Part shown: positions 47,718-57,101 of the stretch, one piece after another
Position numbering within the stretch: position 1 is the first letter of the stretch
Layout: every line of letters begins with the position of its first letter
Assembly: GCF_900182635.1 (NCBI RefSeq)
Contig: NZ_FXTD01000003.1
Span: 124,001 to 188,000 of the forward strand
Length of the DNA: 64,000 nucleotides
From: Halorubrum cibi
GTDB lineage: Archaea; Halobacteriota; Halobacteria; Halobacteriales; Haloferacaceae
Direction of reading: 5' to 3'
The notes under the pieces: generated by a model
The model's input: the letters and a program-made list of their open reading frames with translations, nothing else
What the model was told of the DNA's origin: nothing
Databases searched by the model: none
Program-made: the position numbers and the translations under genes

Positions 47718-48544
47718 GGATGGTGGTGGTGGACGACCTGTCCGGTCGCGCCGTAGGCGTCCTCGAGCGCGTCGCTCTCGACGAACGACTCGGTGTCGCC
47801 GTGGTGGTACAGTTCGGTGTTGATACACGCCACGTGGTCGGCGCGGTCGGTGACGACGCCGATGTCGTGTTCGATCAACACGATCGTGATGCCGTCGTCG
47901 TTGAGCCGGTCGAGGAGCGCGTAGAAGGCGTCACGCGACTCGGCATCGACGCCGACGGTCGGCTCGTCGAGCGCGAGCAGGTCCGCCTCGCTCGCCAGCG
48001 CGCGGGCGATGTACGCGCGCTGTCGCTGTCCGCCGGAGAGCTCGTTCATCAGCCGGTCCGCGAGGTCGGCGATGTCGACCGTCTCCATCGCGGTCGTGAC
48101 CGCCTCCCGGTCCTCCCGACCGAGTCGACCGTGGCCGACGTGGGCGAACCGTCCCATCGTGACGCACTCGCGGACGGTGACCGGCATCGCTCCGCCCCGG
48201 TTCGTCGCCTGCTGTGAGACGTAGCCGATCCGGCTCCCGTCGTCGACCGCGCCGATCGGTCGGTCGAACAGCCTGACCGTCCCCTCGTCGGGGGTGTGAA
48301 GCCCCAACATGAGGTGGAGGAGGGTGGTCTTCCCGGAGCCGTTCGGGCCGACGAGCCCCAGGAAGTCGCCGGCCTCGACCGTGAGCGAGACGTCTCTCAC
48401 GGCGACGGTGTCGCCGTACGCGAACGTCACGTCCTCGAGTTCGATGACCGGATCCACTGTGTGTCTCGACGTTGCGTCCTCCGAAGGTTTAGCTCTTCCA
48501 TTCGCTTCGACGACGCGGTCGGCATGGGCGTCGATCGCGCCCAT
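47714..48544 (-). CDS. znuC: Metal ABC importer, ATP-binding subunit (ZnuC type)
   Basis: A 276-residue ATPase. It has Walker A GPNGSGKTT, signature LSGGQRQRAYIARAL and Walker B LLALDEPTVGVD. The C-terminus is His-rich (VVHHHHP), which is common in zinc ABC ATPases. The start at 48544 overlaps the stop of the binding-protein gene (ATGA), which makes it the likely start even though it adds a 30-residue N-terminal extension before the ABC domain (ELEDVTFAYGDTVAV). Confidence 0.92.
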   Translation of the reverse strand: MGAIDAHADRVVEANGRAKPSEDATSRHTVDPVIELEDVTFAYGDTVAVRDVSLTVEAGDFLGLVGPNGSGKTTLLHLMLGLHTPDEGTVRLFDRPIGAVDDGSRIGYVSQQATNRGGAMPVTVRECVTMGRFAHVGHGRLGREDREAVTTAMETVDIADLADRLMNELSGGQRQRAYIARALASEADLLALDEPTVGVDAESRDAFYALLDRLNDDGITIVLIEHDIGVVTDRADHVACINTELYHHGDTESFVESDALEDAYGATGQVVHHHHP

Positions 48545-49623
48545 CACTCCGCGCCGAGCGCACGCCCGAATGCGGGGACGTTGACCTCGAGCATCTGCTC
48601 GCGGTAGCCGTACCCCGCCTCGTTCCACTCCCGGGTCGACCCGCCCGCGGGCGTCACCGCCACCGTCTCCGTCGCGTTACTGTTCTCGACGACCGTCTCC
48701 GCGAGGTTCGGCGACTCGAAGCGGTCGTACAACACCACGTCGATGTCGTTCTCGTCGACGACCGCGATCGTGTCGGCGATGTCGCTCCCGCTCGGCTCGT
48801 TCTGCGGTGACACGCCGACCGGCGAGTGGATCTCGAAGCCGTACCGTTCGGAGAGGTACTGAAACGAGTCGTGTCCGGCGAGGACGGCGACGTCGCGCTC
48901 GGCGGCGTCGACGGTGGAGGCGAACGCCTCGTCGATCTCGTCGAGTTCCGCGTTGTACGCCTCGGCGTTTTCGGCGTAGTGGTCGGCGTTATCGGGGTCC
49001 GCCTCGCCCAGTCCGGCCGCGATCGTGTCGACGACGTCCTTCGCGAGGACCGGGTCGACCCAGACGTGCGGATCGATCTCGCCTTCGTGGCCGTGGTCGT
49101 CTTCCTCCTCGTGGCCATGGTCGTCTTCCTCCTCGTCGTGGCTTCCCTCCTCGTCGTGGCTTCCCTCCTCGTCGTGTGACTCCCGGCCGTGATCCCACGC
49201 GAGCAGCCGATCGTCGAGGCCGTCCAGGCCGTCGATAACCGCCACCCCCTCGTAATCCGACTCGAGCGTCGACGCGACGTCCTGTGCCCAGGTGAACTCG
49301 GGCGTATCGAAGTAGACGAACGCGTCGCTCGCGGCTACGTCGGTCGCGAGCGTTCCGCTCGGCTCCCAGCCGTGGCCGAGCTGCCCCACGTCGACCGGGT
49401 TCGTGAACGTCGCGCGGTCGCCGACGATCCGATTCGTCCAGTCGTGGAGGGGAAAGAACATCGCGTACCCGGAGTCGATCCCGGCGGCGCTTCCGCTCCC
49501 ACCCGACTCACCGCCGGCACCCGATCCGCCGCCAGCGCCGGCACACCCTGCGAGGGATCCGGCAGCACCGACGCCGATAAGTCCCGCGCTCCGCCGCAGC
49601 ACCGATCTGCGTGTGTCACCCAT
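48544..49623 (-). CDS. znuA: Metal-binding lipoprotein of the ABC importer (ZnuA type)
   Basis: A 359-residue cluster A-I binding protein. The N-terminus has basic residues (RRSVLRRSAG), a hydrophobic run and a lipobox (LAGCAGA). The mobile His/Asp-rich loop at about residues 148-185 contains three SHDEEG units and two DDHGHE units, and is the usual mark of zinc binders. The following DPHVWVDPVLAKDVVDTI and VLAGHDSFQYLSERYG supply conserved metal ligands. Translation probably begins near a short leader. Confidence 0.92.
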   Translation of the reverse strand: MGDTRRSVLRRSAGLIGVGAAGSLAGCAGAGGGSGAGGESGGSGSAAGIDSGYAMFFPLHDWTNRIVGDRATFTNPVDVGQLGHGWEPSGTLATDVAASDAFVYFDTPEFTWAQDVASTLESDYEGVAVIDGLDGLDDRLLAWDHGRESHDEEGSHDEEGSHDEEEDDHGHEEEDDHGHEGEIDPHVWVDPVLAKDVVDTIAAGLGEADPDNADHYAENAEAYNAELDEIDEAFASTVDAAERDVAVLAGHDSFQYLSERYGFEIHSPVGVSPQNEPSGSDIADTIAVVDENDIDVVLYDRFESPNLAETVVENSNATETVAVTPAGGSTREWNEAGYGYREQMLEVNVPAFGRALGAE

Positions 49624-53905: not shown

Positions 53906-54391
53906 GGCCGCCCGTCACCGCCCAGGGGTAATGAACGCACGGGTTGGATCCCTCACCCGCGGACCGCAGATCCCGCCTGACGTGCCGGGTAGCCGCCGTG
54001 AGTCGGTCGGGATCGGACCACTTCCCGACGGAATTCCCCTCTGGAATTCACCCGCGACATCGGTGTCGCCGACGCGTGACAGGGGTCCCGCGTCGGTTGG
54101 TCGGGATTACTCTCCGTGTCAGCGTTCCGGAATCCCGGTGATCCTCCGGGACGATTCGGGCGATGCTGTCGGGATTCGCTACTAAGCCGCCCTTATCGGT
54201 CACGACAGAGGCCCGTCGATTATCGGAGAACACCGGTCGAGAGTAAGTCGAGCGAAATCGAACCACGGCGACGCATAACAAAGCTAGGCCGGGTCGTGAT
54301 GTGCGCTGTGGTTCACACGAGGGTTGTAGACGAGCGAGCGGAGGACAGTTCGACGAACGAAACGCGACGGTTGAGCTGAGTTACAACGCAC
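53906..54391 (+). other. 486-base intergenic region before the Asp-rich secreted protein
   Basis: No gene is supported on either strand. The first 250 bases are mixed and carry GGAATTCCCCTCTGGAATTC (a direct GGAATTC pair at 54028-54048). From 54180 the sequence becomes AT-richer, with CTTATCG near 54190 and CGCATAACAAAG near 54271 as possible promoter elements for the secreted protein downstream. Confidence 0.5.
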
Positions 54392-56023
54392 ATGGAAGAT
54401 TCAACGAAGAAACTTATGGCGATCGTACTGGCGACGGTGATGATGAGCTCCGTCGCGGGGATGGTCGGAGCACAAGAACTACGGCCACAGGTCGAGGCTC
54501 CGGCAGGCAACGACGCCACGGTGGCGTTCTCCGACCAGACGACGGACGGCACGTCGGTGACAGTCGATTCGGTGAACACGCCCGACGGCGGGTTCGTGGT
54601 GATCCACGACGACAGCCTGCTTGACGGGGAGGTCACCGGGAGCGTGATCGGCGTCTCGGAGTACCTCGAGCCCGGGGAAAACGAGAACGTCACCGTCACG
54701 CTGTTCGATGACGTTCCGGGAGCGACGTTCGACCGAACGGAGCTCACCGAGAACGAGACGCTGATCGCGATGCCGCATCGCGACACGAACGCGAACGAGA
54801 CCTACGACTTCGTCGCGACCGACGGGTCGGATGACGGTCCGTACGTCGCCAACGGGTCGGCGGTCACCGACGCGGCGAACGTCACCGTGGAGGCCTCGGA
54901 GACCACCGGTGAATCGTTCGTCGTCGACAATCTGACCGCGCCCGCGGTCGTCGAACGGGGCGACGCCCTGGACGTCACTGCGACCGTCGAGAACCCCAAC
55001 GACGAAGCGGACACACAGACCGTGGAGTACCGGTTCGACGGCAACGTGTCGGCCCGCGAAGAGGTCAGCCTCGATGCCGGCGAATCGACTGACTTCACGA
55101 CCACGGTCGACACGTCGGAGATCGCTTCCGACGCGTACATCCACGGCGTGTACACGCGCGAGGACGGCCAGCCGGCCCAAGTCCTGATCGTCGACGAGAT
55201 CGTCTCCTTCGGAGTCACGGACCTCACCGCGCCCGAATCCGTGACCGCGGGCGACACCGTCAGCGTGAATGCCACGGTCTCGAACCCCAACGAGTTCGCC
55301 CACGAACAGCCGGTCCAGTTCCGGTTCGACGGCGACCTCGTGGAGACTCGAAGCGTCGAACTCGAAGCGTCGAACTCGACGACCGTCCAGTTCGAGATAC
55401 CCACCGACGGGACTCCAGCAGGCATGTACATCCACAGCGTCTTCTCGAACGACTTCGGGCAAGACGCGATCATCACGATCGAAGCCCCCGACGACGACGA
55501 CGATGCTGACGACGGCGACGCTGACGATGGAGATGTCGATGACGGCGATGCTGGCGACGACGCCGATGACGGCGACGCCGATGACGGCGACGCTGATGAC
55601 GGCGACGCTGATGACGGCGATGCTGGCGACGACGATGCTGACGATGGCGAGAGTGACGACGGCAACGCTGACGATGGAGACGCCGATGACGACGATGCTG
55701 GCGACGACGATGCTGGCGACGACGATGCTGGCGATGGTGACGATTCCGGTGAAGACGGAAGTGCCGACGACGGTGATGCCGATGACGGCGACATCGATGA
55801 CGGCGATGATTCCAGTGAAGATGCTGATGATGGCGGGAGCAGCGACGGTGACGCTGACGACGGCGATTCCGGTGAAGACGGAAGTGCCGACGACGGCGAC
55901 GCTGACGACGGCGACGATTCCGGTGAAGACGGAAGTGCCGACGACGGCGATGCTGGCGACGGCGACGATTCCGGTGAAGACGATGGCGACGAGGAGCAGC
56001 CGGAAACTCCTGAGGACGGGTAG
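54392..56023 (+). CDS. Secreted protein with DUF7282-like and CARDB-like domains and a long Asp/Gly tail
   Basis: A 543-residue exported protein. Residues 1-28 form a Sec signal ending VGA before Gln-Glu. A DUF7282-like domain follows (about 45-135: VTVDSVNTPDGGFVVIHDDSLLDGEVTG... ENVTVTLFDDVPG). Two CARDB-like Ig domains come next (about 175-265 and 268-365: NLTAPAVVERGDALDVTATVENPND; DLTAPESVTAGDTVSVNATVSNPNE). From about residue 367 to the end is a tail of Asp, Gly, Ala, Ser and Glu repeats. No PGF-CTERM or membrane anchor is visible after the tail, so it may be released or held by charge. Its role is unknown. Confidence 0.85.
   Translation: MEDSTKKLMAIVLATVMMSSVAGMVGAQELRPQVEAPAGNDATVAFSDQTTDGTSVTVDSVNTPDGGFVVIHDDSLLDGEVTGSVIGVSEYLEPGENENVTVTLFDDVPGATFDRTELTENETLIAMPHRDTNANETYDFVATDGSDDGPYVANGSAVTDAANVTVEASETTGESFVVDNLTAPAVVERGDALDVTATVENPNDEADTQTVEYRFDGNVSAREEVSLDAGESTDFTTTVDTSEIASDAYIHGVYTREDGQPAQVLIVDEIVSFGVTDLTAPESVTAGDTVSVNATVSNPNEFAHEQPVQFRFDGDLVETRSVELEASNSTTVQFEIPTDGTPAGMYIHSVFSNDFGQDAIITIEAPDDDDDADDGDADDGDVDDGDAGDDADDGDADDGDADDGDADDGDAGDDDADDGESDDGNADDGDADDDDAGDDDAGDDDAGDGDDSGEDGSADDGDADDGDIDDGDDSSEDADDGGSSDGDADDGDSGEDGSADDGDADDGDDSGEDGSADDGDAGDGDDSGEDDGDEEQPETPEDG
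55490..56020 (+). repeat. Asp/Gly-coding low-complexity repeat tract
   Basis: About 530 bases made of short GAC, GAT, GGC and GCT units, mostly 6-, 12- and 18-base periods such as GATGACGGCGACGC. It encodes the acidic tail. A longer unit encoding DSGEDGSADDGDADDGD recurs near 55740-55800, 55865-55920 and 55920-55960. Such tracts change length easily by replication slippage. Confidence 0.88.
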
Positions 56024-56171
56024 CTAACCCGGTTTCCTCAGTTTCGTACCTTCTGCCGAGTCCACGGGTTCGGTCATCAAGCACTGAGCGGACCGTCATC
56101 GTCACGGGAACGGCTTTCGAAGGTAGAGCGGCGGGTCACACGGTGACGGATCGTTCGCTTCCGTCGTGCCG

Positions 56172-57101
56172 TCACCCGCCCGCGGTCGACAGGTTTCTTC
56201 TGATGTACCGGCTGATGGCACGGAGACGGTCCGGATCGAACGTCCAGACGCCATGCCAGATCCGCGGCTTCGTCTCCACCGCCAGCAGACCGACCCCGCC
56301 GTTGACCCCCCGGGCGAGGTCGGTCTCCGCGTCCACGGAGGCCGGCCCGCCCGGCGGTTCGAACACGACGAACCAGCTGTCGGTGAAGTCGCTCGAGCGC
56401 CCGCCGTGGATGGTCGCCTCGAGACCCGTCGGCGGGTCGTCGGGCACGCCGTAGAGGTGGGCATCCACCCCGCCGTCGGCGACGCGTTCGTACACGCGCC
56501 GGGTTCCGAGCTCGTCTTCCAGCCGTGAGAGCCGCTGGAACGACGACCGGAGCGTCCCGCCGCCGGCCGTCAGCGCGGCACGCTCGATGAACCGCGAGAT
56601 GGTGATCAAAAGCAGTTTCTGTCGGTTCGACTCGGGATACCCGCGCAGGGTGAACACCGTGTCGTCGAGTCCGGTTATCACCGACGGCAACTCGAGGTCC
56701 TCCGGCGAGCGTGCGTTGGTGATGTACAGATCCGAGTTCACGAACAGGATCGCGTCGCTGAGCGCCTCGAGCGTCGAGCCCGCGATCACTTCGTTGTCGT
56801 CGACGAGTAGGACGAGGTTTTCTGCGTCCGCGACGCGATCGCCCTCGAACGGTACTCCGTCGTGGTCACGAAGGGTATCGACGTCGAGGACGCCGTCGGC
56901 GACGTCGACGAACCCGCTCGCGCCGGCTCCGCTCCATTCAGCGATCCCCCTCTCGCCGACTCTCCGCTCGGTCACGCGGACGGCGTCGTCGCCGAACGTC
57001 TCGACGAGCATGTCCCGAACCGGGTCCGGATCGCTCCGATTGACGACGACGATCGACCGCTCCGCGCTCTCGAACCGATCGACGAGCTGTTCCAGCGTCA
57101 C
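56172..57101 (-). CDS. DICT sensory domain protein
   Basis: A 309-residue soluble protein. The segment LRSSFQRLSRLEDELGTRRVYERVADGGVDAHLYG and the C-terminal DFTDSWFVVFEPPGG... LLAVETKPRIWHGVWTFDPDRLRAISRYIRRNL match the DICT domain, a sensory module found in signalling proteins. The N-terminal 150 residues (VVVNRSDPDPVRDMLVETFG) look like a second, Rossmann-like domain. No output kinase domain is present. An AACGTTTATTTTCGG run upstream (about 57124-57138) probably holds its promoter and ends the glp transcript. Confidence 0.8.
   Translation of the reverse strand: MTLEQLVDRFESAERSIVVVNRSDPDPVRDMLVETFGDDAVRVTERRVGERGIAEWSGAGASGFVDVADGVLDVDTLRDHDGVPFEGDRVADAENLVLLVDDNEVIAGSTLEALSDAILFVNSDLYITNARSPEDLELPSVITGLDDTVFTLRGYPESNRQKLLLITISRFIERAALTAGGGTLRSSFQRLSRLEDELGTRRVYERVADGGVDAHLYGVPDDPPTGLEATIHGGRSSDFTDSWFVVFEPPGGPASVDAETDLARGVNGGVGLLAVETKPRIWHGVWTFDPDRLRAISRYIRRNLSTAGG

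Follow-up and report, generated by a model that had tools for sequence, protein, structure and literature searches.

Among the genes of a 64,000-nucleotide stretch of Halorubrum cibi (contig NZ_FXTD01000003.1; hereafter the window, meaning this whole stretch), one encodes a predicted secreted protein that ends in a long and strongly acidic low-complexity tail. Four features characterize this protein and its relatives at the level of sequence: the order of the domains, an acidic tail in every complete relative with this domain order, the absence of a known sorting signal, and a similar charge density of tails whose sequence changes freely. Based on these features, we tentatively postulate, and hold it at somewhat less than even, that this is an exported modular protein without an anchor, whose disordered polyanionic tail acts through physical chemistry and may be cation-bridged to the S-layer or matrix. 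The protein would leave the cell by the Sec route and remain extracellular with no covalent anchor, and it would be composed of a DUF7282 head, two immunoglobulin (Ig)-like CARDB domains acting as spacers or adhesion modules, and the tail. The latter would stay hydrated and extended in molar salt and keep the protein soluble, while bridging Mg2+ or Ca2+ would link it reversibly to the negatively charged S-layer or extracellular matrix, replacing a lipid anchor. Meanwhile, the DNA of the tail would grow and shrink by tandem duplication, with selection retaining an acidic composition free of basic residues rather than any motif. Two points stand out: a tail that keeps its charge as its sequence changes, and a motif in the DUF7282 domain.

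An earlier note on this DNA had described a secreted protein with a tail of about 177 Asp, Gly, Ala, and Ser residues at 55490-56023. The coordinates proved exact, and the composition was confirmed (Asp 50%, Gly 21%, Ala 12%, Ser 7%, and Glu 6%; net charge of -99 over 177 residues), with no Lys or Arg and no aromatic residues. The tail has a periodicity of five residues, with an identity of 0.55 at lag 5 as opposed to 0.32 +/- 0.03 in composition-preserving shuffles, none of which (0/2000) reached the best lag. The same note had called the tail extreme even for a haloarchaeon, and this holds within the window: when the 362 stop-to-stop frames that span 100 residues or more in these 64 kb are ranked by their best 100 residues, this one comes first with 57 Asp, and the runner-up has 22. 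Genome-wide, the contrast is softer. Two other proteins of the same genome (L079:1457-2635, plus strand, and L080:1182-2567, minus strand) reach 47 and 49 Asp per 100 residues, and both are apparently secreted and anchorless, the acidic tract of the second lying in the middle of the protein. A degenerate acidic-repeat pattern modelled on the window tail itself matched exactly at nine places of the genome, eight of them within this tail, and with up to one mismatch at 44 places, many overlapping, of which 14 are in the tail; the reversed control matched none. As a protein query against its own genome the tail retrieved only itself, which does not mean that such tracts are absent, as the pattern search found them. 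An acidic tail also ends the L081 protein, which we take to be ribosomal protein L10/P0. Such acidic tracts thus recur habitually in the Halorubrum genome studied here.

The N-terminal part of the protein met clear matches. Its DUF7282 match scores 135.3 bits (Pfam cut-off 27) and its CARDB match (PF07705) 38.6 bits over two stretches (cut-off 22.7), placing the protein in both families. The tidy Ig-like domains that had been noticed ahead of the tail are two CARDB domains, and the DUF7282 domain in front of them had been overlooked. A putative signal peptide is recognizable by eye, consistent with the secretion proposed before, and the remaining Halorubrum members begin with similar N termini; the haloarchaeal signal-peptide model TIGR04207 gave a weak match in one of 14 members (E 0.047). 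Other matches were discarded. That of Pfam A2M (residues 158-211, 28.4 bits, cut-off 21) is ascribed to the Ig-like character of the first CARDB domain in general, those of ExtJ in 4/14 members (window residues 6-59) reach 25.4 bits and fall under the cut-off of 52.5, and those of NCBIfam collagen-like adhesins, in up to 6/14 members, are taken as low-complexity matches of the tails.

We read 16 members with the domain order of the window protein, from Halorubrum, other Haloferacaceae, and Haloarculaceae, using genome sets with one genome per species. Fifteen are complete, and one (L015) is cut by a contig end inside its tail; L084 was left out as it represents the same place of apparently the same genome as L055, and two members (G291 and G358) were placed in Haloarculaceae through family and genus labels common to the L055 group. 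The core is conserved in the 15 other members, with about 80 additional residues between signal and DUF7282 in that of G141. The closest named relatives by core identity are those of Halorubrum rubrum (93%) and H. aquaticum (89%), and a plasmid of Halobellus sp. DFY28 carries a further member (78% identity). The distribution is patchy: a full-length relative of the core occurs in nine of 52 Halorubrum genomes, and of 391 genomes drawn evenly across the class, 15 matched at E <= 1e-70, spread over four of 86 genera and including these nine. No relatives were detected in the phage collection at E <= 1e-3, nor in viral contigs.

All counts leave out the more distant DUF7282 proteins, whose domain orders differ. 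Five uncounted genomes (G059, G072, G155, G165, and G169, with matches from 1e-40 to 1e-58) came up in the family search at E <= 1e-40, and 38 records besides that of Halobellus in the plasmid search; among those read, they showed other domain orders or partial matches; L042, L043, L045-L048, and the remaining plasmid matches lie outside the set of read proteins. These distant proteins end in diverse ways. L041 (from G169) lacks a long acidic tail; L044 and L058, which are one protein, carry a Thr/Pro/Glu stretch followed by a short hydrophobic-leaning terminus and no acidic tail; in L059 acidic stretches flank the domains and the terminus is ISLI; and in L056 acidic repeats follow DUF7282 and run to the contig end.

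We looked for orthologues that lack an acidic tail and found none among the 15 complete members of the same domain order. Variation of the tail between strains had been anticipated; between species, its length differs, from 67 to 184 residues (177 in the window, 155 and 184 in the two closest species). Charge per residue lies between -0.36 and -0.67, with a mean of -0.53 and a standard deviation of 0.07 over the complete members. A single basic residue occurs in the 1840 tail residues of all 16 members, the cut one included, as opposed to 139 in the 5515 residues of the mature cores. Meanwhile, the letters of the repeats change from member to member. The window tail repeats DDGDA, that of H. 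lipolyticum GEDGTD, and that of L038 EADEGD; the Halobellus tail has a 15-residue DGDTGNETSTPEDGT unit containing N-glycosylation sequons, and three Haloarculaceae members have EEPT-like units (Glu/Pro/Thr). These tails fall into D/G/A, E/D/A/G, D/T/G/E with sequons, and E/P/T types of composition and are strongly negative throughout, suggesting that charge seems to matter more than the letters of the tail.

This diversity bears on the proposal that the tail seeds minerals, either as an Asp-specific function or as a calcium nucleator like mollusc Aspein. The resemblance is real as far as composition goes, since Aspein and other acidic shell-matrix proteins are described as Asp-rich and of low complexity without trypsin sites (PMC4660305), as is the tail of the window. 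These proteins belong to unrelated organisms, however, and Asp is not conserved in the family studied here. Three orthologues contain 0-8% Asp and 41-46% Glu and keep the charge through Glu/Pro/Thr units, so that the Asp enrichment expected of calcium- or mineral-binding Asp-rich proteins does not extend across the family, and a function that depends on Asp itself, mineral seeding for example, is unlikely. Neighbouring genes give no hint of biomineralization either, and we regard a nucleator as highly improbable. The ionic reading of the tail is plausible, and a hydrated, disordered polyanion, perhaps interacting with divalent cations, is the best reading and preferred over mineral seeding, which the orthologues disfavour.

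The lack of an anchor, also proposed earlier, was borne out. None of the C-terminal sorting-signal models of NCBIfam matched the window protein at E <= 0.1, and no archaeosortase anchor, PGF-CTERM (TIGR04126) included, was found at this threshold in the 15 complete members (14 members, one of them cut, plus two more were searched, which makes 15 informative out of 16). The same search recognizes such anchors in this organism, as the five-DUF7282 paralogue of its own genome (L004) matches PGF-CTERM with 43.4 bits (cut-off 24.5). PGF-CTERM segments are cleaved by an archaeosortase, which also mediates lipid attachment (PMC8559796). The own-genome paralogue, whose locus is L083 (G000:C14:6500-12500), combines five DUF7282 domains (matches at C14:8432-10267), an acidic linker, and a PGF-CTERM anchor, and so shows the head domain of the window protein in an anchored protein. 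The multi-DUF7282 paralogue of H. lipolyticum (G018:C4:15417-17468) seems to be broken, with domain matches over several open frames and a TGA inside one match.

Could the protein descend from a surface protein that was once anchored by PGF-CTERM and kept its acidic stalk, the present tail, when the anchor was lost? In the five-DUF7282 paralogue, an acidic linker stands right before PGF-CTERM, as this scenario would have it. Nonetheless, all 15 complete members are anchorless, meaning that any loss is old and that the tail has been kept and remade since, and those in-frame continuations past the stop codon that were read, by eye, contain no PGF motif. We consider this origin very unlikely.

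The very end of the protein was also inspected. Its final residues, P-E-D-G/A-stop, are common to all eight members of the clade of the window in the core tree, unlike the repeats, which cannot be aligned, and are not conserved in members outside this clade. A sorting tag at the conserved C terminus was dropped as a candidate, given that the end is conserved in this clade alone. A hairpin spans the stop codon in three of five folded sequences (window, H. rubrum, and H. aquaticum), with z-scores of -1.1 to -2.3. Over seven distinct sequences, 78.6% of the cells were paired as opposed to 78.0% in shuffles, with one double-change pair; pairing exceeds that of slid versions (26-60%), which is expected for a structure drawn from these same sequences. 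With unimpressive z-scores and covariation no better than in shuffles, a conserved terminator was likewise dropped.

In the DNA of the tail, Tandem Repeats Finder detected units of 15, 51, and 75 bp among others. In-frame 18-mers of the window tail recur within it at 31% and are found in the tails of the two closest species at 6-10%, as compared to 29-37% of core 18-mers shared with these species; for the tail of H. rubrum, the values are 28% within and 7-18% between. Ala is encoded by GCT in 15 of 22 codons of the window tail and in two of 35 of the core (Fisher p 7e-7), a skew that is the same in H. rubrum and H. aquaticum, while a skew of Asp towards GAT is significant in two of three species (p 0.02 and 0.03). 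These repeat units and codon skews fit recurrent duplication of small DNA units. The assembly of H. cibi is a 35-contig draft in which the repeat count may be imprecise, and a collapse of repeats would make the real tail longer, not shorter.

Duplication at the DNA level opens the possibility that the tail is mostly neutral, a product of replication slippage and unequal recombination among repeats of GNN codons, which a genome with an acidic bias would generate and a C terminus would tolerate. The codon skew and the species-specific units are what this process would leave, and 90% of the window tail codons are GNN. Yet charge persists in the Glu/Pro/Thr tails, where only 50-52% of codons are GNN, and the acidic frame is retained in 15/15 complete members even though the +1 frame is also free of stops in the six tails examined. 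We thus judge a mostly neutral tail to be improbable. In these six species all three antisense frames are stop-free as well, and the +2 frame holds 5-31 stops. Since the repeat composition explains the stop-free antisense and +1 frames, genes in alternative frames over the tail were rejected; likewise, the antisense open reading frame (ORF) 54802-55794 (330 residues) is a shadow ORF, with counterparts of merely 162 residues in H. rubrum and 117 in H. aquaticum.

The most serious competitor is that the tail is a solubility or entropy tag only, which prevents aggregation in brine or aids export and has no binding role. What persists in the family is precisely charge and the absence of basic and aromatic residues, no motif is conserved across all members, and unrelated proteins encoded in this genome carry similar tracts, whether terminal or internal. 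On the other hand, even without its tail the protein is acidic (net charge of -45 to -62 in 14 cores) and should be soluble on its own, and a tail that takes up to one third of the chain is a large cost. We consider a pure solubility tag rather unlikely, and less so than the other alternatives weighed here.

Several points weigh against a cation-bridged, charge-selected tail. Cation bridging is our interpretation, and simple solubility would leave an identical sequence record; the location of the protein, ion binding, and association with a matrix are proposals, and no neighbouring gene backs a role in the matrix. Acidic tracts are common in haloarchaeal proteins, those of this genome included. 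Even charge varies, as the Halobellus tail, with four sequons, is the least charged at -0.36 per residue. All tails count as disordered by a charge-hydropathy score, but the folded cores fall on either side of its dividing line, making this weak evidence. As for duplication, self-similarity is weak in the tail of H. aquaticum (13% within as opposed to 10-11% in the two others), the Ala codon skew was examined in three species only, and that of Asp GAT is not significant in H. rubrum (p 0.31).

The folded part of the protein provides a second lead. AlphaFold2 with eight sequences produced two confident all-beta Ig-like CARDB domains and no model of DUF7282. With a Z of up to 12.7 over 90 residues, the structural matches of the CARDB pair represent the Ig/FnIII fold in its common form, and a phmmer search of the window core against PDB chains returned none at E <= 1. 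Modelled alone with nine sequences, DUF7282 reached a mean predicted local distance difference test (pLDDT) of 53; Foldseek with this model gave nothing at E <= 0.001, the azurin rows at E 3.5-9.2 being not meaningful, and the VIA-align run barely probed this part of the protein. Motif counts were made over 73 non-identical DUF7282 stretches from the fetched loci, a set that is biased towards Halorubrum and includes the repeats of the own-genome paralogue. The His of an A-M-P/A-H motif is present in all 73, and two residues past it stands Asp in 70 and Glu in three. The His of GGFVxIH is found in 71, while D-x-[DN]-x-[DN]-x-x-Y and H-x-D-x-[DN]-x-[DNG] occur anywhere in the domain in 63 and 65, respectively. 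This His/Asp pattern looks like a metal site, and we infer that the HRDTNANETYDF loop may resemble a DxDxD-type cation loop. The metal-site-like motif in the uncharacterized DUF7282 is the most testable lead of this analysis. DUF7282 is named in no paper found, nor did we find anything on this protein, in a literature search whose coverage left out most subscription papers.

The genomic surroundings suggest that the gene may have moved between genera. Among the loci compared, synteny of the neighbours with the window extends to H. rubrum and H. aquaticum alone. What H. yunnanense and the Halobellus plasmid have in common with the window is a stretch from ~54067-54087 to ~56046-56063 without synteny of the flanks, comprising about 300 bp upstream, the ORF minus most of its tail, and about 40 bp downstream; the upstream ~300 bp (~54087-54391) travel with the gene to both. 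In H. lipolyticum, H. salsamenti, and sp. Hd13 the ORF is present with an unrelated upstream region; the gene context of the first two is common to each other and different from that of the window. The core tree nests the Halobellus copy within the window's own clade of eight members (support 100/99), in which the order is poorly resolved, and the Halorubrum copies of G033 and G011 group with genus g20 (100/99). Transfer between genera is the simplest reading of these patterns, which an ancient duplication may possibly explain instead. Beside the orthologue on the Halobellus plasmid (L057:1780-5472), we observed a heavy-metal P-type ATPase, an AsnC-type regulator, and a heavy-metal-associated domain protein, a single case.

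A bolder version of our proposal would make the protein a horizontally mobile single-gene extracellular adhesin of haloarchaea, in which a charge-selected tail replaces the lipid anchor through divalent cations and is joined to a metal-dependent DUF7282 binding head with its two near-invariant His and D-x-[DN]-x-[DN] loop; taken as a whole, we hold this combination to be improbable. No operon or module emerged: of ten neighbour proteins (from L051, L052, L053, and L055), eight fall into unrelated families and two into none, and no partner gene was identified. Directly downstream in the window, the gene at 56172-57101 (minus strand) encodes a protein with a weak resemblance to DICT (19.4 bits; Pfam cut-off 23.8), and it is absent from H. 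rubrum although both flanks are syntenic. Further away, the product of the minus-strand ORF 48544-49623 looks like a putative metal ABC-transporter binding protein, in which tandem 24- and 18-bp units at 49085-49176 encode a loop rich in His, Asp, and Glu. RNA family models gave only one match, to sbcD on the antisense strand and under the threshold (E 0.061, 23.8 bits, cut-off 40), and a scan for promoters and terminators, with promoter models that are bacterial only, found zero sites of each. The features of the gene are listed in Table 1.

Table 1. Features of the acidic-tailed protein gene and its surroundings (window coordinates)
Feature	Position	Strand	Details
Coding sequence	54392..56023	+	543 aa, with a putative signal peptide, the DUF7282 domain, a pair of CARDB domains, and the acidic tail
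Putative Sec-type signal peptide, residues 1-27 (KK, hydrophobic stretch, VGA/QE)	54392..54472	+	assigned by eye
DUF7282 domain (PF23951), residues 42-165	54515..54886	+	Pfam, E 1.3e-39
Conserved HRDTNANETYDF loop within DUF7282	54776..54811	+	motif count over 73 domains
First CARDB/Ig-like domain, residues ~172-268	54905..55195	+	Pfam CARDB; AlphaFold2 pLDDT ~84-94
Second CARDB/Ig-like domain, residues ~270-366	55199..55489	+	Pfam CARDB 275-345; pLDDT ~86-92
Acidic low-complexity tail, 177 aa, residues 367-543	55490..56020	+	net charge -99
Stop codon	56021-56023	+	
75-bp tandem unit, 3.1 copies, 80% matches	55493..55725	+	Tandem Repeats Finder
51-bp tandem unit, 2.8 copies, 93% matches, youngest-looking duplication	55843..55982	+	Tandem Repeats Finder
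Outer limits of the stretch common to Halorubrum yunnanense and the Halobellus plasmid	54067..56063	.	sequence comparison

Several known systems are reminiscent of this protein. The PGF-CTERM-anchored surface proteins of haloarchaea share with it a putative signal peptide, DUF7282, and an acidic low-complexity segment near the C terminus, our example being the five-DUF7282 paralogue; unlike in them, no PGF-CTERM model matches the window protein or its relatives. Halomucin of Haloquadratum walsbyi, for which a water-retaining hull is proposed (PMC4378361), is a mucin-like protein of 9159 residues and in this differs from the window protein, the comparison being one of descriptions only. In hypha-forming haloarchaea, predicted secreted or membrane proteins with Asp-rich repeats have been proposed to coordinate Ca2+ (PMC10067837). 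Those are other organisms, of the family Halobacteriaceae, and their proteins too were compared by description only. A matrix scaffold of the RbmA type has two tandem FnIII domains (PMC5605196). Aligned with the CARDB pair (Foldseek and VIA-align), RbmA displayed 12-17% identity, a Z of 10.8, and a root-mean-square deviation of 17-18 A over both domains, a match at the level of the common fold only. RbmA is not known to have an acidic tail.

If the tail is not an ionic anchor, this would be an ordinary acidic secreted protein of a halophile. The family also offers a natural series of 15 tails of similar charge density and different chemistry (Asp/Gly/Ala, Glu/Pro/Thr, and glycosylatable Asn/Thr), from which studies of disordered polyelectrolytes in brine could benefit. 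If the ionic anchor is true, it would give haloarchaea a means of retaining extracellular proteins that does without archaeosortase and may be tuned by salt and Mg2+.
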